Shown: positions 4,699 through 21,825 of the stretch, piece by piece
How the letters are laid out: each line of letters starts with the position of its first letter
Numbering within the stretch: the stretch's first letter is position 1
The notes under the pieces: model-generated
Databases searched by the model: none
Told to the model about the DNA's origin: nothing
What the model saw: only the letters and a program-made list of their open reading frames with translations
Position numbers and translations under genes: made by a program
Source of the DNA: a virus
IMG/VR virus record: IMGVR_UViG_3300008108_005188
Coordinates: 1 to 22,048 of that record
Reading direction: 5' to 3' (one strand)
Length of the DNA stretch: 22,048 bases

Positions 4699-4814
4699 CA
4701 GACTTAATCTACGGTTTGATATTGTCCGGTGTGACGTTTGTTGGCATCATGGCACTGGTCATCGTGATTGGTAGAACCATTGGACGACTGTTTGGCCCTA
4801 GAGAAGATAGATGA
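4695..4814 (+). CDS. 39-aa single-pass membrane peptide
   Basis: A 40-codon ORF (39 aa) that exactly fills the space between clamp and dpdA. Its ATG overlaps the clamp TGA (ATGA, 4695-4698) and its TGA overlaps the dpdA ATG (4811-4814). Residues 4-27 are one hydrophobic helix (LIYGLILSGVTFVGIMALVI), followed by a basic tail (GRTIGRLFGPREDR). The precise double overlap makes it very likely translated. Function unknown; it sits in the replication/DNA-modification run. Confidence 0.7.
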   Translation: MTDLIYGLILSGVTFVGIMALVIVIGRTIGRLFGPREDR

Positions 4815-6304
4815 CTGAGCGTGATGATTTAACTGCCAAGCAAAAGGACTATGCGGTTTTCTTGCCGGCTATCTCGGGATTCTATGCCACATTCATAGGC
4901 AAGCAAAGAGATCCTGCAAATGGTCCTTATGTGGATCCTGCTAGGTTTCCACCTGGCATGACTGACATGGAGCAGTTGAACTGGCTCAATGCCAAGAAAA
5001 GCATATTCCCTTATCGTTACAGTCTTTACTCCGGAGGACACGCCAATCTTGATCTGGCCAAACAGGACTGGTCCGAAGACATGGTTAGGAATCGCATCGA
5101 CTCAGATCCTGATACTGTGATACTGGGCGACTCCGGAGGATTCCAGATTGCCAAGGGAAAGTGGGAAGGTGATTGGCGTGCCGGATCCGGCTGTGCGCGG
5201 GCACAAAAATACAGAGAATCCAGTCTGCGTTGGTTGGATAATATTTCTAACTATGCCATGACCTTGGATATTCCCACTTGGGTCATACACGATCGCGAAG
5301 CCAACAGCAAGGTTGGAAACTTCCAGTCAGGGCAAGAACTGGTAGATGCCACCAAGTACAACAACGACTTCTTTATGGCCAATCGCCGCGGCATCAACAA
5401 CGGTGGCACACGCATATTGAATGTGTTGCAAGGTGACAATCATCGTGCTGCCGATGATTGGTATGATACCATGAAACATTACTCGGATCCTGGTCGCTAT
5501 CCCACAACACATTTCAATGGCTGGGCCATGGGTGGACAAAACATGGCCGATATGGAACTGATACTGCGCCGATTGGTTACCTTACGCTATGACGGATTGT
5601 TACAACAAGGCGTTCATGATTGGATGCACTTTTTAGGCATCAGTAAACTAGAGTGGAGTTGCCTACTCACAGACATACAGCGTGCCATCAGGCGCCATGT
5701 CAATGCCAACTTTACCATCAGTTATGACTGTGCAAGCCCATTCCTGGCCACTGCCAACGGTCAGGTCTATTACGAAAGTATTTTCGAGCACGATGGCAGA
5801 TTCAGTTATCGTATGGCTCCTTCAGCCGATGACAAGAAATATTCCACAGATACCAGACCCTGGGGCACAGGTGTCATAGCCGATGGCATCTATGAACGTT
5901 GGGAAGATTCGCCGGTGAGCCAAATGCTTCGTATGCGAGATATTTGCATATACCGACCGGGCGATCTAAATAAAGTAGGCAAGGAAGGCAACACATCGTG
6001 GGACAGTTTCAGTTACGCACTTCTCATGGCACATAATGTTTGGACACATATCCGCGCCACGCAGGAAGCCAACCGGCGTTATGATTCAGGTGTGATACCA
6101 GAGATGTTGCGCAATCAGATCAGCGGAGACACTTTCCGTGACATAGTAGAAAGGATTTTTTCTGCGCCCACCCAAGATGATAGCCTGGCCATCATTGATC
6201 ATTATCACAGTTACTGGATGGAGATCATTGGTGTAAGGGGATTCAAAGGCAAAAAGGCCAAAAACGCCAACACTAAATTTAATGAACTTTTTACCATTAG
6301 TTAG
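4811..6304 (+). CDS. dpdA: DpdA-like DNA 7-deazaguanine transglycosylase (TGT superfamily)
   Basis: 497 aa. Core tRNA-guanine-transglycosylase features appear in order: GDSGGFQ with the catalytic-type Asp107, LDIP at 152-155, NVLQGD (204-209) in the position of VQGG, GWAMGG (237-242) like the GYAIGG turn, and SYDCASP with Asp306 where TGTs carry the second catalytic Asp. The usual CxCxxC zinc site is not evident, unlike tRNA TGTs. Phage DpdA proteins belong to this superfamily and swap guanine in DNA for a 7-deazaguanine base. FolE, QueD, QueE and a YhhQ-like transporter in the same window support a DNA role rather than tRNA. The start overlaps the preceding peptide (ATGA). Substrate base and sequence specificity cannot be read. 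Confidence 0.85.
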   Translation: MTERDDLTAKQKDYAVFLPAISGFYATFIGKQRDPANGPYVDPARFPPGMTDMEQLNWLNAKKSIFPYRYSLYSGGHANLDLAKQDWSEDMVRNRIDSDPDTVILGDSGGFQIAKGKWEGDWRAGSGCARAQKYRESSLRWLDNISNYAMTLDIPTWVIHDREANSKVGNFQSGQELVDATKYNNDFFMANRRGINNGGTRILNVLQGDNHRAADDWYDTMKHYSDPGRYPTTHFNGWAMGGQNMADMELILRRLVTLRYDGLLQQGVHDWMHFLGISKLEWSCLLTDIQRAIRRHVNANFTISYDCASPFLATANGQVYYESIFEHDGRFSYRMAPSADDKKYSTDTRPWGTGVIADGIYERWEDSPVSQMLRMRDICIYRPGDLNKVGKEGNTSWDSFSYALLMAHNVWTHIRATQEANRRYDSGVIPEMLRNQISGDTFRDIVERIFSAPTQDDSLAIIDHYHSYWMEIIGVRGFKGKKAKNANTKFNELFTIS

Positions 6305-8950: not shown

Positions 8951-9941
8951 ACGATACATAATCACTGGCGGGTCGGGCTACATTGGCAGTCATACGGCCA
9001 GAGCCTTGCGGCTCCACGATCCCGACTGCAGTATCTGGATCATTGATCGCCAGTTGAGACCGCACACGCTAAAGGGTGTGGATCTGCATACCGAAAGTTG
9101 TTTTGCTGATGCCATGACTTTGGAATGCATAGTTGATTATCAGCCCACGGCTGTGATACATTGTGCTGCGGATCATGTGGTGCCCCACAGCGTGACTGAT
9201 CCTGATCGATTTTATCTCAACAATGTTGTCAAAACACACAGTTTGTTGAGCGTGCTACGGCGTATCAAGCAGCCTCCTCGAGTACTGTTCAGTAGCACAG
9301 CAGCGGTATATGGCAACAATGAAAACGTGCCCATCGAAGAAACTGAACCGGTGGCTCCCATCAATGCCTATGGCAATACCAAAGTTGCCATAGAAAATAT
9401 GCTGGCAGATTACAACCGCGCATATGGTCTGGACTCGGTATGTTTTAGATATTTCAATGCAGCCGGTGCCGAACCCAATGATCATGATCTGGGACAGCCC
9501 TGGGGCGCTAGCCACATAATCGCAAGGATACTGGAAAGCTATCTTGCACACCAACTGTTTACCTTGTATGGTCAGGACTATGACACACCCGACGGAACCT
9601 GCATCAGAGATTATGTACACGTCTGGGACATAGCACAAGCACACATCTTGGCTTTGGATTATCTCGATCGCTGTCCTGGACATCATGTGTTTAATCTTGG
9701 CACAGCACAAGGGATCAGCAACCAGGAAATCATCCAAACTGTGGCTGAAAAATATGGTGCATTTGATCTCATGGTAGATAACCGTAGAGCCGGTGATCCT
9801 GCGAGATTGGTAGCCAGCAACAGCCGAGCCCGAAAACTACTGGGCTGGGTGCCACGCTACAGCGACCTAGATACCATAATTGAATCAGCGTATGAATGGT
9901 ATCACCAAAACTATTGCGAAAACATCAAAGAAAGTGTATAA
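8931..9941 (+). CDS. galE: UDP-glucose 4-epimerase-like NAD-dependent sugar epimerase
   Basis: 336 aa from GTG 8931 (AGGA 6 nt upstream), within the end of the glycosyltransferase gene; E. coli GalE is 338 aa. The extended SDR fold is clear: TGGSGYIGSH (12-21) binds NAD, the catalytic SST lies at 121-123, and the Y-x3-K pair is Tyr147/Lys151 (YGNTK). RYFNAAGAEP and DGTCIRDYVHV are diagnostic for GalE. It interconverts UDP-glucose and UDP-galactose (or N-acetyl forms) in the cytoplasm. Coupling to the glycosyltransferase suggests it provides the donor sugar. Interior ATGs further upstream are inside the neighbouring gene and were not used. Confidence 0.92.
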   Translation: MPKASTKRYIITGGSGYIGSHTARALRLHDPDCSIWIIDRQLRPHTLKGVDLHTESCFADAMTLECIVDYQPTAVIHCAADHVVPHSVTDPDRFYLNNVVKTHSLLSVLRRIKQPPRVLFSSTAAVYGNNENVPIEETEPVAPINAYGNTKVAIENMLADYNRAYGLDSVCFRYFNAAGAEPNDHDLGQPWGASHIIARILESYLAHQLFTLYGQDYDTPDGTCIRDYVHVWDIAQAHILALDYLDRCPGHHVFNLGTAQGISNQEIIQTVAEKYGAFDLMVDNRRAGDPARLVASNSRARKLLGWVPRYSDLDTIIESAYEWYHQNYCENIKESV

Positions 9942-9942
9942 T
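9914..9942 (+). promoter_or_regulatory. folE promoter placed for a leaderless mRNA
   Basis: TTGCGA (9914-9919), 17-nt spacer, and a perfect TATAAT (9937-9942) inside the 3' end of galE. The folE ATG begins 7 nt later (9950) with no Shine-Dalgarno, so transcription should start at or next to the start codon. Confidence 0.6.
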
Positions 9943-9949
9943 ACAAAGT

Positions 9950-10645
9950 ATGAGTGAAAAAACCCTAGCACAAGCACTGAGAGAAAAGATGCAGTCCGAT
10001 GGCAAAAGATTCTGGGCCGGAGACAACATCTCTGACTATATCCATTGGAGTGATCGCGAGCGCCTGATCAATGAAACCACTGCGGCATTTGAACAGGTGC
10101 TAGACAGTTTGTTGATCGATCGCGAAACTGATCCCAACAGTCGAGGCACAGCGCGACGCCTGGCCAAGATGTACTTCAATGAGATCATGGCCGGACGCTA
10201 TGATCCTGCTCCTGACTGTACTGCGTTTCCCAATGACTCTGCGGATCGTTATGAAGGTATGTTGGTAGTGCGGTCAGAGATTCGCAGTATGTGCAGCCAT
10301 CATCACCAACCTGTGACAGGTGTGGCCTATATTGGCATCCTTGCGGCACAGAAACTGATCGGACTTTCTAAGTACACACGCATCGCACAATGGTGTAGCC
10401 GCCGTGGCACACTGCAAGAAGAACTGTGCAACGATATTGCCAGAGAGATTATGAAAGCCACCGATTCAAAGGATGTGGGTGTTTACATACAGGCCACACA
10501 CGGTTGCTGTGAGAATCGTGGCATCATGGCCCATTCTAGCCTTACACAAACCACAGTTCTGCATGGTGCGTTCCGCACAGATCCTGCTGTGAAAAAAGAG
10601 TTTACTGACAATATCAAACTGCAACAGGACTTTGCACCCAGATAA
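9950..10645 (+). CDS. folE: GTP cyclohydrolase I
   Basis: 231 aa; turns GTP into 7,8-dihydroneopterin triphosphate, the first step to both folate and 7-deazaguanines. Zinc ligands match the E. coli enzyme: Cys115 and His118 in CSHHHQPVTG, and Cys186 in HGCCENRGI. IGLSKYTRI is the usual substrate-binding loop and the C-terminal QTTVLHGAF strand is present. ATG 9950 is used because the family begins here; it has no ribosome site and follows a promoter by 7 nt. Together with QueD, QueE and DpdA it most likely serves synthesis of the modified DNA base. Confidence 0.95.
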   Translation: MSEKTLAQALREKMQSDGKRFWAGDNISDYIHWSDRERLINETTAAFEQVLDSLLIDRETDPNSRGTARRLAKMYFNEIMAGRYDPAPDCTAFPNDSADRYEGMLVVRSEIRSMCSHHHQPVTGVAYIGILAAQKLIGLSKYTRIAQWCSRRGTLQEELCNDIAREIMKATDSKDVGVYIQATHGCCENRGIMAHSSLTQTTVLHGAFRTDPAVKKEFTDNIKLQQDFAPR

Positions 10646-11137: not shown

Positions 11138-11264
11138 TGCTGGCTTGCCCACGCACACTTATTTTTGGGTCGACCAAGAAAATCGTGTGATTGGGCCTTA
11201 TTTCAACTCTGAGCAAGAAGCACAAGATTGGTTGGCACAGAATAGTAGCAGTGAAGAATTGTAG
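11112..11264 (+). CDS. 50-aa protein, unknown
   Basis: An ORF of 50 codons with tandem ATGs (11112, 11115): MMQLVKYRDAGLPTHTYFWV, then DQENRVIGPYFNSEQEAQDW and an acidic end. The pattern of a 'Y/F-W-V-D ... I-G-P-Y-F-x-S-E-x-E-A-x-x-W' mini-domain looks like a genuine beta-beta-alpha fold, and codon use matches neighbours. It lies directly ahead of the tmRNA. Function unknown. Confidence 0.5.
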   Translation: MMQLVKYRDAGLPTHTYFWVDQENRVIGPYFNSEQEAQDWLAQNSSSEEL

Positions 11265-11267
11265 TTT

Positions 11268-11570
11268 AATGCCTTGACAGAAAGGTGTTGCGGACTCGGG
11301 TTCGATTCCCGACACCTCCACCAAAAGCATATTGTAAGAACGCATGAGCAGGTTCTATACTACCGCTGGTTACGCCAATCGTAAGTGAGTGTAGGCAGTA
11401 TGCTTTTGATGGGGGTGACTTGGTTTCGACGTGACAAAAAGTATGAACAGGATCTACACGGTAGGCGATGACCGTAAATCAAGCAAAACCTATAAACGCC
11501 AACGACGACGTTTACGCAATGGCCGCTTAAGGCCTGCTGAGGGTGGAAGCCCAAGAAACAGAACTTCCAA
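11268..11570 (+). ncRNA. ssrA: Circularly permuted two-piece tmRNA
   Basis: The 3' acceptor piece comes first: T arm with stems 11296-11300/11308-11312 around TTCGATT, acceptor strand CACCTCC (11313-11319), A, and encoded CCA (11321-11323). The 5' coding piece starts at 11411 with GGGGGTG, which pairs with CACCTCC including the G3-U pair needed for alanine charging, then the conserved GGTTTCGACG. P2 forms between 11430-11436 (CGTGACA) and 11286-11292 (TGTTGCG). The tag reading frame 11498-11530 encodes ANDDVYAMAA and TAA. An H-type pseudoknot follows (GGG 11541-11543 with CCC 11550-11552; TGGAAG 11544-11549 with CTTCCA 11564-11569). The 11324-11410 insert is bounded by AAAAGCATA (11323-11331) and TATGCTTTT (11399-11407), which would extend the acceptor helix and be cut out. 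tmRNA with SmpB frees stalled ribosomes and tags the peptides. The 5' edge is approximate. Confidence 0.93.
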
Positions 11571-11571
11571 A

Positions 11572-11595
11572 AAGGCTGCTTCGGCAGCCTTTTTT
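11572..11595 (+). terminator. Intrinsic terminator of the tmRNA gene
   Basis: AAGGCTGC and GCAGCCTT form an 8-bp stem closed by the very stable C(TTCG)G tetraloop, followed by a T run (11590-11595). It lies 2 nt after the last tmRNA pseudoknot. Confidence 0.92.
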
Positions 11596-11620
11596 GTCAA
11601 CTGTAGCGTGTCTAAGGCGT

Positions 11621-11626
11621 TAAATA
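11621..11626 (+). promoter_or_regulatory. TAAATA late-promoter-like element
   Basis: TTAAATA between the tmRNA terminator and the exported AKP-rich gene, 49 nt before its ATG. Only a short hairpin (AGGG...CCCT, about 11632-11646) and a Shine-Dalgarno lie between, so this is a plausible promoter with a normal leader. Confidence 0.35.
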
Positions 11627-12186: not shown

Positions 12187-13200
12187 ATGAAAAAACTACT
12201 AACAGCAGTACTTTTGGCCGGTGCTACCACAGTATCTGCACAAAATGTCACAGTGTACGGTGTTATCGACACAGGTGTACAGAACTACAACACCGGTGCC
12301 GCTAGTTTGACCCGCGCCACTGATGGCATCCTGGCTACCAGCCGTTTGGGTTTTCGTGGAACAGAGGACCTGGGTGGTGGACTTACAGCAGGTTTTGTAT
12401 TAGAAGGCAAAGTTGTTCCTTCCGCAGGAACTCTTGGTTCTACAGCAACAACAGGACAGGCATTTGACCGTGAGTCATCCATATTTGTTGCAGGCAAGTT
12501 CGGAGAGATCCGTGCAGGCAAAACTGACATTTCTGCGGCTGAAGGTGTAGACACCTTGACCACGCAGGCCGGCAACTTGGGTTTCCACGCCAGCAACGGT
12601 ACAGCAGTTGAGCTAGGTGGCGATGCTGCCAGCACAGTTCGTTATACCACGCCCAAGTTCAGCAACTTCTCTGCACAGATTGGTCGTTCAACCAATGCCA
12701 ACGGCGCTACCACAGACGCTGGCACAGAGCTCACAGGTTACAGCGTGACCTATGACGACGGCAAGTTGAAACTGATCGCAGGTCAGGTAAAATTAAACGC
12801 AGCTACAACAGTGGCCGAGCGTGATTTCACTGCCTACGGTGCAGCCTATGACTTTGGTGTTGCCAGCGTTGGTGCATCATATGCATCAGGTGACGTATCT
12901 ACCACAGGCGATGTCAAGAACACAGTGAAACAAGCTTCCATCCGTGTTCCTCTCGGAGCAGGTTTGGCAGCACACGGTGTTTATGCAATTACCAAAGATG
13001 GTACACAGGCATCAGCAGGTGAAGGCAAAGGTTATACCGTTGCTGTTACCAAAGCACTGAGCAAGCGTACTTCGGTATATGCTGCTTACACAGCCGTCAC
13101 CAACGAAGCCAATGCCACAATGAGCATGGTAGGAACCACAGCAGGTACAGCAGGTCTTGATCCCAAGGCAACAACTGTTGGTATCAGCCACACGTTCTAA
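12187..13200 (+). CDS. Outer-membrane porin, betaproteobacterial general-porin type
   Basis: 337 aa. Signal peptide 1-18 (cleavage TVSA before QNVTVYG). The mature N-terminus VTVYGVIDTGVQNYN, the SRLGFRGTEDLGGGLTAGFVLEGK strand-turn-strand, the GKFGEIRAGK segment and the final GISHTF with C-terminal Phe (BAM signal) are hallmarks of 16-stranded porins of Burkholderiales and relatives. Length is normal and no break is visible, so it should make a trimeric diffusion channel. AAGGAAA precedes the ATG. It is bounded by terminators on both sides, which suggests an autonomously expressed cargo gene. Porins occur in lambdoid prophages (for example Lc of PA-2); one in a T4-like genome is unusual. It may replace a receptor porin or change nutrient uptake. 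Confidence 0.93.
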   Translation: MKKLLTAVLLAGATTVSAQNVTVYGVIDTGVQNYNTGAASLTRATDGILATSRLGFRGTEDLGGGLTAGFVLEGKVVPSAGTLGSTATTGQAFDRESSIFVAGKFGEIRAGKTDISAAEGVDTLTTQAGNLGFHASNGTAVELGGDAASTVRYTTPKFSNFSAQIGRSTNANGATTDAGTELTGYSVTYDDGKLKLIAGQVKLNAATTVAERDFTAYGAAYDFGVASVGASYASGDVSTTGDVKNTVKQASIRVPLGAGLAAHGVYAITKDGTQASAGEGKGYTVAVTKALSKRTSVYAAYTAVTNEANATMSMVGTTAGTAGLDPKATTVGISHTF

Positions 13201-13697: not shown

Positions 13698-14201
13698 ATG
13701 TCAAAGCAATCACGCATCTATCAGTATGTCAGTACCAAAGAGTATCACAATGCCTTTCCCTGCGCTTATAGACAATGGCGTGCCGACAGCCATTGTAACT
13801 TGATACATGGTTATGCCTTTTCAATGAAGTTTTATTTTGGCACAGATGAGTTGGATACCAGGAACTGGGCCGCCGACTACGGTGGACTCAAAGAACTAAA
13901 AGGCATATTAGAAGATCAGTTTGACCATACATTGTTGGTGGCACAGGACGATCCCGAATTGGCCACATTCAAACTGTTGCAAGAAAAGAAGATGGCCAAA
14001 CTTACCATCCTGCCTAGGCTGGGCTGCGAAGGATTGGCCGATATGCTTTACAAATATATCAATGGAGTGTATATTCCAGATATGTGGGGACCAGGCGAAG
14101 CCGAAAGATTGTGGTGCTATCGCGTGGAAGTTCGTGAAACACAGTCCAACATGGCTTTCCGTGAAGGGCATCGCGAATGGAACGAAGATCTATTTCTATA
14201 A
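13698..14201 (+). CDS. queD: QueD-like 6-carboxytetrahydropterin synthase
   Basis: 167 aa. Converts dihydroneopterin triphosphate (FolE product) to 6-carboxy-tetrahydropterin in 7-deazaguanine synthesis. Seen: the CNLIHGY block with catalytic-type Cys33 and zinc-type His37, DYGGLKELKGILEDQFDHTLL (the DFG-L...DH segment, His77), and a VEVRET strand with the substrate-binding Glu. The canonical HGH is HGY (Tyr39), and the His of the usual F-x-A-A-H-R is Tyr24 (FPCAYRQW), so two of three usual zinc ligands seem replaced, perhaps by His32. It may be a divergent QueD or a related enzyme with another reaction. It starts a run that continues into the YhhQ gene 9 nt later. Confidence 0.8.
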   Translation: MSKQSRIYQYVSTKEYHNAFPCAYRQWRADSHCNLIHGYAFSMKFYFGTDELDTRNWAADYGGLKELKGILEDQFDHTLLVAQDDPELATFKLLQEKKMAKLTILPRLGCEGLADMLYKYINGVYIPDMWGPGEAERLWCYRVEVRETQSNMAFREGHREWNEDLFL

Positions 14202-14210
14202 GGAGAAATC

Positions 14211-14831
14211 ATGTTAGATCGAATACTATCAGGCGTTGATCGTGCGCTGGCCTACAAGCTGATGCTGGCCCACATCATTATTATCGCAGTCAGCAATTAT
14301 ATCGTACAGTTCAAATTCAACATTTTTGGTCATCCCTTGGCCGCTGCCGCATTTACCTTTCCCTTGGTAGTGGTCTTGACAGATCTCACAGTAAGGCTTA
14401 TTGGCAAGGACACTGGTCGCGCTGTGATCAACCTGGCATTTATTCCTGCTATCCTTGTGAGTATGCTGGTGGTAAAACTAGGTGGTGCTCCAGACTCTGT
14501 GGCATTCCGTATTGGTCTGGGTTCTGGCGTGGCATACTTTATCAGTAACCTGTTGGATGTGTATGTGTTCCAGTACATCAGAGAAAAATTTGCCACTTGG
14601 TGGTATGCACCAGCACTGAGCGCAGTGGCATCAACATTTATTGATACCTATGTGTTTTTCTTCACAGCATTTTACAAAGGCGCCAATGAGTTCATGGCTG
14701 CCAACTGGTTCACTGTGGCCACCAACAACAGTTGGGCCAAGATCTTGGTAAGCCTGTTGGTCATACTGCCTTTTTATGGCATCCTGCTCAACAGACTGCA
14801 GAAACGTTTTGAACCTTCTAAGTCTGCATGA
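14211..14831 (+). CDS. yhhQ: YhhQ-family queuosine-precursor transporter
   Basis: 206 aa (E. coli YhhQ 221 aa), with about six membrane helices. The family signature AAAFTFPLVVVLTDLTVRLIGKDTGRAVI lies near residues 43-71, and SGVAYFISNLLDVYVFQYIREK and STFIDTYVFFFTAFYKG follow. Known members import preQ0/preQ1 across the inner membrane; related genes are known beside dpdA in some phages. Here it coexists with folE, queD and queE, so the phage may combine synthesis with uptake. AAGGAG precedes the ATG, and the stop overlaps the next ATG. Confidence 0.88.
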   Translation: MLDRILSGVDRALAYKLMLAHIIIIAVSNYIVQFKFNIFGHPLAAAAFTFPLVVVLTDLTVRLIGKDTGRAVINLAFIPAILVSMLVVKLGGAPDSVAFRIGLGSGVAYFISNLLDVYVFQYIREKFATWWYAPALSAVASTFIDTYVFFFTAFYKGANEFMAANWFTVATNNSWAKILVSLLVILPFYGILLNRLQKRFEPSKSA

Positions 14832-16018: not shown

Positions 16019-16185
16019 CACACTGGAAACTGCCTGTAGAAGAACTTGAAGGAGACTTGGTGATAACATTGCCACAAGACTTGTTGGATGCTGCTGAATT
16101 GCAGATCGGAGACACACTGACCTGGCACATTGACGAGCAAGGTCGTGTGACCTTAAACAAAAAGGAAGCAGATGGAAAAGATTAA
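16015..16185 (+). CDS. SpoVT/AbrB-like (MazE-type) small DNA-binding protein
   Basis: 56 aa. GDLVITLPQDLLDAAELQIGDTLTWHIDEQGRVTLNKKE has the swapped-hairpin AbrB pattern (I-T-L/I-P-x-x-L-L-x-x-x-x-L-x-x-G-D-x-L-x-W). Such proteins are transition regulators or antitoxins. No toxin gene stands next to it; the neighbours are a membrane peptide and QueE. The last residues overlap the queE start by 14 nt. A phage regulator or orphan antitoxin is likely. Confidence 0.65.
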   Translation: MTHWKLPVEELEGDLVITLPQDLLDAAELQIGDTLTWHIDEQGRVTLNKKEADGKD

Positions 16186-17047
16186 AATAGCAGAACTGTT
16201 TTATAGCGTACAAGGCGAAGGTAGATACATGGGTGTGCCCAGTGTGTTTATGCGCACATTTGGTTGTAACTTTCGTTGCAAGAAGTTTGGCAGGCCCAGG
16301 GACGAAGAGATAGAAGGTGCCAATCCTGAAGTGGCTGCTGTGATGACTCGCATATCCGAATTCAAAAGTTATAACGAACTGCCCTTGGTTTCCACCGGCT
16401 GCGATACCTATGCTGCCATCTATCCCGAGTTCAAGGATCTCAGTCCTTATCGTTCACCCGAAGAAATCGTCACAGACACCATGGCCATGCTACCTTATCG
16501 ACAGTGGCGCGATGAACACTTGGTGATCACTGGCGGTGAACCTTTGCTGGCCTGGCAACAGATCTATCCTGTGTTATTGAGCAGACCCGAGATGCTGAGG
16601 CTCAAAGAAATCACGTTTGAAACCAATGGTACCCAACTGCTGTATCCAGAATTCAGACACTTTCTATTGAACTGGACTCTGAATCCCACATTTGGTCGTA
16701 GAGGACCCAATGCGCTGACTTTCAGTGTGAGTGCCAAACTTACGTGTTCTGGCGAGTCGCGCGAAGATGCCATACGACCCGATGTGGTCATGCAGTATCA
16801 AGAAATAGGGCATACATATCTTAAATTTGTCATTGCCCAGGAACAAGATGCAGAAGAAGCATTAGAAGTATTGGAGATCTATCGCCGTGAAGGATTCACA
16901 GGCGATGTTTATCTCATGCCTGTGGGCGGTGTGGAAAGTGTGTACAGTCTAAACAATCGCCGCGTGGCAGAGTTGGCCATGCAACACGGCTTGCGCTACA
17001 GTGATAGACTACAGGTGCCACTGTTTAAAAATGAGTGGGGCACCTAG
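16172..17047 (+). CDS. queE: QueE-like 7-carboxy-7-deazaguanine synthase (radical SAM) with an insertion
   Basis: 291 aa; AAGGAAG lies 5 nt before the ATG. QueE turns 6-carboxy-tetrahydropterin into 7-carboxy-7-deazaguanine. ELFYSVQGEGRYMGVPSVFMR is the family start, followed by FGCNFRC (Cys32, Cys36). The third Cys, normally two residues on in C-x2-C-DT, is here in GCDTYAA at Cys77, after about 40 inserted residues. VITGGEPLL (SAM-binding GGEP) and FETNGTQ are intact, and the C-terminal VYLMPVGG strand is present. The enzyme is about 70 residues longer than compact QueEs. It likely still holds the cluster through Cys32/36/77. Confidence 0.85.
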   Translation: MEKIKIAELFYSVQGEGRYMGVPSVFMRTFGCNFRCKKFGRPRDEEIEGANPEVAAVMTRISEFKSYNELPLVSTGCDTYAAIYPEFKDLSPYRSPEEIVTDTMAMLPYRQWRDEHLVITGGEPLLAWQQIYPVLLSRPEMLRLKEITFETNGTQLLYPEFRHFLLNWTLNPTFGRRGPNALTFSVSAKLTCSGESREDAIRPDVVMQYQEIGHTYLKFVIAQEQDAEEALEVLEIYRREGFTGDVYLMPVGGVESVYSLNNRRVAELAMQHGLRYSDRLQVPLFKNEWGT

Positions 17048-20843: not shown

Positions 20844-21186
20844 AGATCTACTGACTCAAACGCTGTACGAAAAAATCCCAGAACCCGGTTATAACCTTGA
20901 GCAGGCACAACTGATTTGGTGGTGCAATGTGCGTGCCACGGGTGGACTCCGGCTCACACAAGAAGGTTGGAAAGTGCTCAAACGAGATCTTGAACTGGAA
21001 AGCTACAGCATCAACTTGGATAAAAAAGAAATCAACAAACAGTTTATCCTTGACCTAGATCGCAAGTTGACCACTCCTTATTTCATCGAGCGAGATCGCA
21101 TACATCTGTTTGGCAGTCGAGAAGCAGTAATGGCCTTGCTACACGGCAACATGAGCCGATACCTAGAAAGTCTTGCCCGCAGTTAG
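20833..21186 (+). CDS. 117-aa uncharacterised phage protein
   Basis: ATG 20833 inside the end of the previous gene (an in-frame GTG at 20815 is the alternative). Mostly helical: LTQTLYEKIPEPGYNLEQAQ, IWWCNVRATGGLRLTQEGWK, then NKQFILDLDRKLTTPYFIER, and RIHLFGSREAVMALLHGNMS. The 'WW.NVR.TGGLRLT..G' segment followed by 'LDRKL.TPY' resembles a conserved family of T4-like marine phages in my memory, function unknown. Confidence 0.6.
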   Translation: MKNKDLLTQTLYEKIPEPGYNLEQAQLIWWCNVRATGGLRLTQEGWKVLKRDLELESYSINLDKKEINKQFILDLDRKLTTPYFIERDRIHLFGSREAVMALLHGNMSRYLESLARS

Positions 21187-21189
21187 CGG

Positions 21190-21218
21190 TTGACCAAAAA
21201 ATACCATTTTGCTATACT
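21190..21218 (+). promoter_or_regulatory. Strong sigma70 promoter of the ncRNA
   Basis: TTGACC (21190-21195), 17-nt spacer ending TTTTGC, TATACT (21213-21218), an extended -10. Its spacer begins AAAAAAT and ends TTTTGC exactly as in the promoter at 21446. Confidence 0.8.
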
Positions 21219-21224
21219 AATGGT

Positions 21225-21441
21225 AACAATAGCGCACCGGGGTCATTGGAACCAGCGTGAGTGATGTTGAAGGGTCAAGACTTTCGAGTCCCGAGTAGCC
21301 CGGTGTTTGTGACTGTTTTCTACTCGCCCACTTTCTGCGGTCCTGCTAGATGGGCCGACGAATCACTTGATCTAGCCCAGGTAAGTGTGCGCTAACCACT
21401 GTATTTTTGCTAGGTTAGCGCTCACTTACCTTTAGTTTTTT
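21225..21441 (+). ncRNA. Unrecognised structured ncRNA with two predicted H-type pseudoknots
   Basis: No protein-like reading frame fills this 290-nt gap. From the predicted start near 21225: helix A pairs GCACCGGG (21234-21241) with CCCGGTGT (21299-21306). Helix B pairs CGAGTAG (21292-21298) with CTACTCG (21320-21326), interleaved with A and directly abutting it, giving an H-type pseudoknot with coaxial stems. A hairpin GACT-TTCG-AGTC (21279-21290) lies in the first loop. Helix D pairs GCTAGAT (21345-21351) with ATCTAGC (21370-21376), and GGGC in its loop (21352-21355) can pair with GCCC (21326-21329), a second interleaved pair. A strong terminator ends the unit. No tRNA, RNase P, 6S or tmRNA landmark is present. 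Independent transcription is well supported, function is unknown. Confidence 0.75.
21380..21441 (+). terminator. Long intrinsic terminator of the ncRNA
   Basis: GGTAAGTG (21380-21387) plus GCGCTAACC (21389-21397) pair with GGTTAGCGC (21413-21421) plus CACTTACC (21423-21430), 17 bp with one central T-T mismatch and a 15-nt loop, followed by TTTAGTTTTTT. Confidence 0.9.
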
Positions 21442-21445
21442 GTAC

Positions 21446-21474
21446 TTGACCAAAAAATCGTGTTTTGCTATAAT
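21446..21474 (+). promoter_or_regulatory. Consensus promoter of the GIY-YIG gene (leaderless start)
   Basis: TTGACC, 17-nt spacer ending TTTTGC, perfect TATAAT (21469-21474). The ATG at 21481 is 6 nt later, about where transcription should begin; no ribosome site exists. Confidence 0.8.
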
Positions 21475-21480
21475 ATGCTT

Positions 21481-21825
21481 ATGGACAGTAAAAAAGCACC
21501 CCGCAAAAAACGCTCAGATCGCACCCACATCGTTTACAAGATCGTGTCGGGCACAGACTTCTACATTGGTGTCACTGCCAAGACTGAGTCAACTGTGCTC
21601 AAGAGTGTGCGTGTTCGTATGAACAAGCATCTGTATCGTAGCCGAAGTGAAGACAAATCCTGGGCCTTGTACGAAGCCTTGCGTGATCGTGGCCCTGGTG
21701 CTTTTGCTTACTCGATCGTGGCAGTGGTGCGTGGCAAGAGTGAAGCACATTCGGTAGAGCGTGCTTTGATACGCGAACTGCGTCCTAACCTGAATACTGA
21801 TACTCGTGAAAGGAAAACACAATGA
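21481..21825 (+). CDS. GIY-YIG nuclease-domain protein
   Basis: 114 aa from ATG 21481; an ATG at 21475 overlaps the expected +1 boundary and is less likely. After a basic N-terminus (MDSKKAPRKKRSDR) comes a single GIY-YIG domain: THIVYKIVSG and FYIGVTAK are the two signature strands, RVRMNKHLYRS carries the catalytic-type Arg, EAHSVERALIREL the metal-binding Glu and PNLNTD the closing Asn. Stand-alone GIY-YIG proteins include homing endonucleases and repair or restriction enzymes. There is no DNA-binding extension and no intron in sight. Its TGA overlaps the next ATG. Confidence 0.85.
   Translation: MDSKKAPRKKRSDRTHIVYKIVSGTDFYIGVTAKTESTVLKSVRVRMNKHLYRSRSEDKSWALYEALRDRGPGAFAYSIVAVVRGKSEAHSVERALIRELRPNLNTDTRERKTQ

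Follow-up and report, generated by a model that had tools for sequence, protein, structure and literature searches.

The stretch of DNA analysed here, referred to as the window, is a virus fragment of 22,048 bp in IMG/VR that comes from a large lake-water phage. Its DNA polymerase shares 46–49% identity with the versions of the jumbo phages Sinorhizobium Phosso and Agrobacterium Atu_ph07, and related contigs are up to 353 kb in size. A gap in the window, flanked by a 116-aa ORF (which ends at 21186) and a GIY-YIG ORF (21484–21825), contains the gene of a structured RNA, and the features of this locus are the following.

21190–21218, plus strand: promoter, TTGACC-17-TATACT, extended -10 (TG before the -10), 10/12 consensus
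21225–21440, plus strand: predicted ncRNA transcript unit, placed from promoter and terminator; covariance models R1 and R2
21234–21241, plus strand: P1 5' strand, GCACCGGG, partner 21299–21306
21253–21269, plus strand: P2 hairpin, CAGC-(GTGAGTGAT)-GTTG, strands 21253–21256 and 21266–21269
21259–21265, plus strand: P5 5' strand, GAGTGAT, part of the P2 loop, proposed partner 21362–21368
21272–21274, plus strand: GGG of the proposed helix P8, with CCC at 21327–21329
21279–21290, plus strand: P3 hairpin, GACT-loop-AGTC, strands 21279–21282 and 21287–21290
21292–21298, plus strand: P4 5' strand, CGAGTAG, partner 21320–21326
21299–21306, plus strand: P1 3' strand, CCCGGTGT, adjoining P4 with zero linker in all members
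21320–21326, plus strand: P4 3' strand, CTACTCG, partner 21292–21298
21338–21343, plus strand: P6 5' strand, CGGTCC, partner 21352–21357
21346–21351, plus strand: P7 5' strand, CTAGAT, in the P6 loop, partner 21370–21375
21352–21357, plus strand: P6 3' strand, GGGCCG, partner 21338–21343
21362–21368, plus strand: P5 3' strand, ATCACTT, within the pseudoknot 2 linker and invariant
21370–21375, plus strand: P7 3' strand, ATCTAG, partner 21346–21351
21379–21431, plus strand: terminator hairpin, 18 bp (9+9) around a single T/T mismatch, then a T-rich tail
21446–21474, plus strand: the GIY-YIG gene's own promoter, 11/12 consensus

The first-pass annotation had assigned to this RNA an extended -10 promoter and a terminator of its own, and both are confirmed. 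The TTGACC promoter lies immediately 5' of the RNA in every member of the family, and the terminator lies 3' of it in all of them, with a weak T tract in L016. The predicted +1 is located at approximately 21225 and the predicted 3' end is the end of the T tract, which defines an RNA of approximately 200 nt. In all members the next gene has a separate promoter; the one found in the window makes the GIY-YIG gene independent of read-through from the RNA gene. The promoter of the RNA is strong and host-type, and belongs to a class (GGTTGACC-N-TATAAT, also GGTTGACC[A/G]RAAAT..TATAAT) that precedes many short one-gene units, mostly on one strand, in the contigs surveyed for it (G050, G051, G011 and G038). 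By analogy with other large phages, the units under these promoters would be accessory genes, presumably early ones. The spacers of the RNA vary by 1–2 nt among members, which argues that the gene is non-coding, and a short frame within it (GTG AGT GAT ... TAG) was dismissed given a stop in L028 and 1-nt indels elsewhere. As judged from the sequences, an independent ncRNA gene that has its own promoter and terminator, a predicted transcript and no conserved frame, and that moves as a unit, is well supported.

The search for relatives started from the GIY-YIG protein, with which 80 viral loci were retrieved, and full-length members were called with covariance models R1/R2. The RNA was found in seven distinct phage lineages, that is, in 11 contigs besides the window, with one copy per RNA-bearing contig. 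In five of them (L002, L003, L004, L005 and L010) it is approximately 96–98% identical to that of the window; identity is 82% in L016 and approximately 72% in L028, L031 and L033. The remaining two, L107 (a 222,775-bp contig) and L108 (95,020 bp), were added by DNA patterns derived from conserved blocks and are full-length matches of model R1 (E of approximately 1e-42 to 1e-47). In L019, L034, L039 and L018 the covariance model also hits the DNA upstream of GIY-YIG, but what matches is mainly the terminator hairpin, of a kind that these phages have at other places too, and the four are not counted as members; the pattern hits L109–L114 and L115–L131 were set aside as well, since they do not match the covariance model. 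No relative was obtained by blastn against 50,697 records of cultured phages or against plasmid records, nor by exact pattern against 84,980 bacterial and archaeal genomes. Several of the group's large contigs (316, 344, 347 and 353 kb) carry no copy, which implies that the RNA is dispensable in that group, and among the compared contigs, which are partial, no protein convincingly tracks its presence or absence.

Two genome sites with different neighbours are occupied by the RNA. It is present upstream of the GIY-YIG gene in 9 of the 80 loci and absent from the other 71, while in L107 and L108, contigs in which no GIY-YIG relative was found, it sits between a tail-like ORF of 400–738 aa and an ORF of 132 aa, beyond which a DNA ligase-like gene follows (the names tail-like and ligase-like were given by eye). 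A special link to GIY-YIG genes, upstream of which the first-pass annotation had suggested looking for homologues, is not supported by these counts, and the RNA gene proves to be independent of its neighbouring genes.

The site upstream of GIY-YIG has other occupants. In L021 (5403–5575) it holds another, unlike structured RNA that is preceded by a promoter of its own and whose terminator is formed by pairing of the 5' end with the 3' end (fold z = -5.2); this RNA has no Rfam match and, among the loci searched, its relatives appear only as a terminator hairpin in L015 and L017. The site seems to exchange RNA genes. In L066 / G038 (approximately 179870–180030) a promoter is followed, a few tens of bases on, by a terminator-like hairpin and there is no ORF, so that a very short transcript is predicted.

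The body of the RNA begins with an H-type pseudoknot made of P1 and P4, two helices that no nucleotide separates in any member. P1 has 8 bp, one of them G-U, and reads GCACCGGG/CCCGGTGT in the window, with compensatory versions in L033 and L107 (GATATCGGG/CCCGATATC) and in L108 (GATATCAGG/CCTGATATC). P4 has 7 bp and appears as CGAGCAG/CTGCTCG in other lineages. Dinucleotide shuffling rarely yields a zero-junction pseudoknot of this length (15 bp): 4 shuffles out of 2000 contained one. This is exactly the first pair of interleaved helices drawn by the first-pass annotation, and both helices show compensatory changes.

Two hairpins, absent from that earlier drawing, stand between the strands of P1 and P4. 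P2 is compensated in L028 (AAGC/GTTT) and its 9-nt loop, GTGAGTGAT, is nearly invariant, while P3 is compensated in L031 (GCCT/AGGC) and in L107 and L108 (GACC/GGTC). Further downstream, P6 and P7 form a second H-type pseudoknot, which is kept by compensatory changes. Each helix has three pairs altered on both sides: P6 occurs as CGGTCC/GGGCCG, CAGTCC/GGGCTG and TGGTGC/GCGCCA, and P7, with 100% of its cells paired, as CTAGAT/ATCTAG, CTGGAC/GTCCAG and CCGGAT/ATCCGG. Only 3 nt separate P7 from the terminator stem. A second pseudoknot had also been proposed at first reading, and its 3' helix (21345–21351/21370–21376) was right and covaries; its first helix (21326–21329/21352–21355, GCCC/GGGC) was mis-registered, is lost in relatives (GGGC to GCGC) and gives way to P6 at 21338–21343/21352–21357.

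The helices P1–P4, P6 and P7 were delimited by manual division of the members into structural blocks. In a MAFFT alignment (A2), 95.7% of the cells are paired, compared with 30–39% when the partners are slid by 1–3 columns, and 15 pairs are altered on both sides, compared with 4.8 in shuffles. In the hand-aligned strands of the seven distinct members there are 14 two-side-changed pairs and 31 two-side-changed cells, as opposed to 7.7 and 11.1 in strand-swapped controls, and 0 of 2000 swaps between members reach that level. The distinct solutions found in P1, P6 and P7 point to several separate changes, though the controls, both shuffles and strand swaps, do not model the family tree. In addition, shuffled versions of the RNA fold less well than the RNA itself (z = -3.1, terminator included). 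Compensatory changes among relatives, the check that the first-pass annotation had named for its proposal, are thus found; they back six helices (P1, P4, P2, P3, P6 and P7), and a conserved pseudoknotted fold can be regarded as well supported.

Other contacts are invariant and therefore stay at the level of proposals. The P2 loop can form 7 bp (P5) with the linker of pseudoknot 2 in all members, and this pairing, also new with respect to the earlier drawing, is constant save for one change from G-U to A-U; P5 may be a third interleaved contact that ties both pseudoknots. In the same way, P8 joins two segments that do not vary on either side. An alternative helix, GGGTCAA (21272–21278) with TTGATCT (21367–21373), is also possible in all members; it is incompatible with P7 and with part of P5, and RNAalifold ranks it above P5/P7. 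P7 is favoured because it varies on both sides and the alternative on one only, and the RNA may switch between the two forms.

The first-pass annotation could not match the RNA to tmRNA, 6S, RNase P or tRNA and took it for an orphan, and this is borne out by Rfam 15: the RNA of the window has a single hit, to a microRNA precursor, which falls on the terminator's minus strand and is put down to chance, and the other members scanned find only chance microRNA and snoRNA-type hits. It is not described either in the literature on structured RNAs of phages, huge phages and jumbo phages that was searched, a set that leaves most subscription papers and preprints outside. The RNA is a new family of a known general kind, the phage-encoded structured RNAs. 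A group I intron or a GIY-YIG-associated element was rejected, as there is no Rfam intron match and the RNA also occurs where GIY-YIG is absent; its longest runs of similarity and complementarity to E. coli 16S rRNA, 7 and 8 nt, were judged to be chance.

Comparison with known systems shows partial likeness in each case. Like tmRNA (RF01850 / RF04321), which the same phage encodes, the RNA is a stable molecule with a chain of pseudoknots, but it has neither a tRNA-like part nor a tag frame, and no Rfam or ARAGORN hit falls on its gene. The tmRNA family is above the cut-off in 7 of the 12 phage contigs searched (window included) and is hence common in this phage group; the window and the RNA-bearing contigs G013, G015 and G050 carry both RNAs, so the present RNA is not a substitute for tmRNA. 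ROOL and GOLLD are ornate, pseudoknotted RNAs of phages and prophages whose partner and function are not known; they measure several hundred nt, often lie close to tRNA islands and form cages (PMC12286853); the present RNA is likewise a phage-encoded, structured and pseudoknotted orphan, but it is shorter, has a different fold and matches neither family in Rfam. Non-coding RNAs of the jumbo phage phiKZ have been seen by Grad-seq (PMC8545117), and they resemble the present one in coming from the intergenic space of a jumbo phage; the example considered differs in that it has approximately 100 nt and is defined by expression and not by covariation (PMC8545117).

As for the tmRNA of the window (11201–11621), it is a phage tmRNA of the betaproteobacterial permuted type with the tag ANDDVYAMAA, found by ARAGORN only at 11231–11621 and by covariance hits only at 11201–11595. 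The window also has an outer-membrane porin gene (12187–13200; Pfam Porin_4, E 2.5e-40), an element for which no close bacterial relative was confirmed, and between 4811 and 17047 a set of genes that resemble the 7-deazaguanine pathway. Within this set, the Vut_1/YhhQ-like transporter (14211–14831) was confirmed by family search, and the others were judged by eye: TGT-like (4811–6304), FolE-like (9896–10645), QueD-like (13698–14201) and QueE-like (16172–17047).

With regard to function, we infer that the RNA is expressed, and early, and that it acts in trans by binding a factor. Transcription would start at the strong host-type promoter and stop at the RNA's own terminator, the body would fold into the two H-type pseudoknots, P1/P4 and P6/P7, and pairing of the P2 loop with the linker of pseudoknot 2 (P5) may lock both together; the finished RNA would then work in trans, its most likely role in the infected cell being to bind, as a rigid scaffold or as a decoy, a protein or ribonucleoprotein of either the host or the phage. 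That the locus is a single-copy structured RNA gene acting in trans, likeliest as such a scaffold or decoy for a host or phage factor, is given roughly even chances, and with about the same confidence this reading is preferred to its four rivals, namely a switch in cis, antisense pairing, catalysis and mere insulation. The proposal that it is a viral RNA machine, in which two H-type pseudoknots are locked by a loop-linker contact and act in trans against host machinery as ligand, decoy or catalyst, is more tentative and falls somewhat short of even chances.

The first alternative is a cis-acting riboswitch or attenuator, whose pseudoknotted domain would sense a ligand while the terminator gates read-through into the next gene. 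The RNA shares with some riboswitch aptamers the presence of H-type pseudoknots followed by a terminator, the aptamer-like fold lies directly before the terminator stem, and a pairing between GTGAGTG of the P2 loop and CACTTAC of the terminator 3' strand can be drawn by eye. Nevertheless, a 7-bp alternative would hardly open an 18-bp terminator hairpin, and in L016 the terminator strand, CACTAAC, breaks the pairing. The next gene, moreover, is GIY-YIG at one site and the 132-aa ORF at the other, and in either case a separate promoter serves it past the terminator, unlike in riboswitch aptamers, none of which is matched in Rfam. This explanation is considered unlikely.

The next in probability, and also unlikely, is a base-pairing regulatory RNA (antisense or sponge), for which the P2 loop would be the seed, directed at an RNA of the host or of the phage. 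The near invariance of its 9 nt is what is expected of a seed, and such RNAs typically have a long terminator. Yet the complement of the loop, ATCACTT, is kept within the same RNA, which offers a simpler cause of conservation, the other conserved unpaired stretches do not exceed approximately 4 nt, and such a role would not call for the costly pseudoknots. Among the targets that the first-pass annotation had put forward as possible, namely host ribosomes, RNA polymerase and mRNA, base pairing with an mRNA looks less likely, since the P2 loop is the only long conserved unpaired stretch that could act as a seed; binding of a factor by the folded molecule is more probable.

Catalysis by the RNA, with the invariant segments as the active core of a ribozyme or the like, is rather improbable and comes after these two; a nuclease that works in trans and an RNA that processes itself would be examples. 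The compact core of interleaved helices is comparable in complexity to known small ribozymes, and several segments outside the proven helices (CATT, GTGAGTGAT, TCAA and ACGA/ACCA) are invariant or nearly so. HDV-like ribozymes fold as a nested double pseudoknot with its own strand order and inserted hairpins; the present RNA shares with them the interleaved helices and the coaxial stacking of P1, but differs in strand order, lacks a hairpin between the P4 5' and P1 3' strands as well as inside the second loop, and matches no Rfam ribozyme family. Least probable of all is a mere insulator, that is, a terminator module with a relict body that only separates neighbouring transcription units: some relatives do have only promoter and terminator at the same site, and L021 a different structured RNA, but a hairpin alone would suffice for that task, whereas compensatory changes keep the body in six helices and the RNA is also found at a second genome site.

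The scaffold or decoy reading thus remains the preferred one. To our knowledge, complex tertiary folds have been described in only a few phage RNAs, most of which are much larger or have no known function. The present RNA is small enough for crystallography, cryo-electron microscopy and probing in the test tube, and its natural variants are ready-made compensatory mutants with which the fold can be tested. If it does bind a host factor, it would be a case in which large phages control the cell by means of an RNA rather than a protein.
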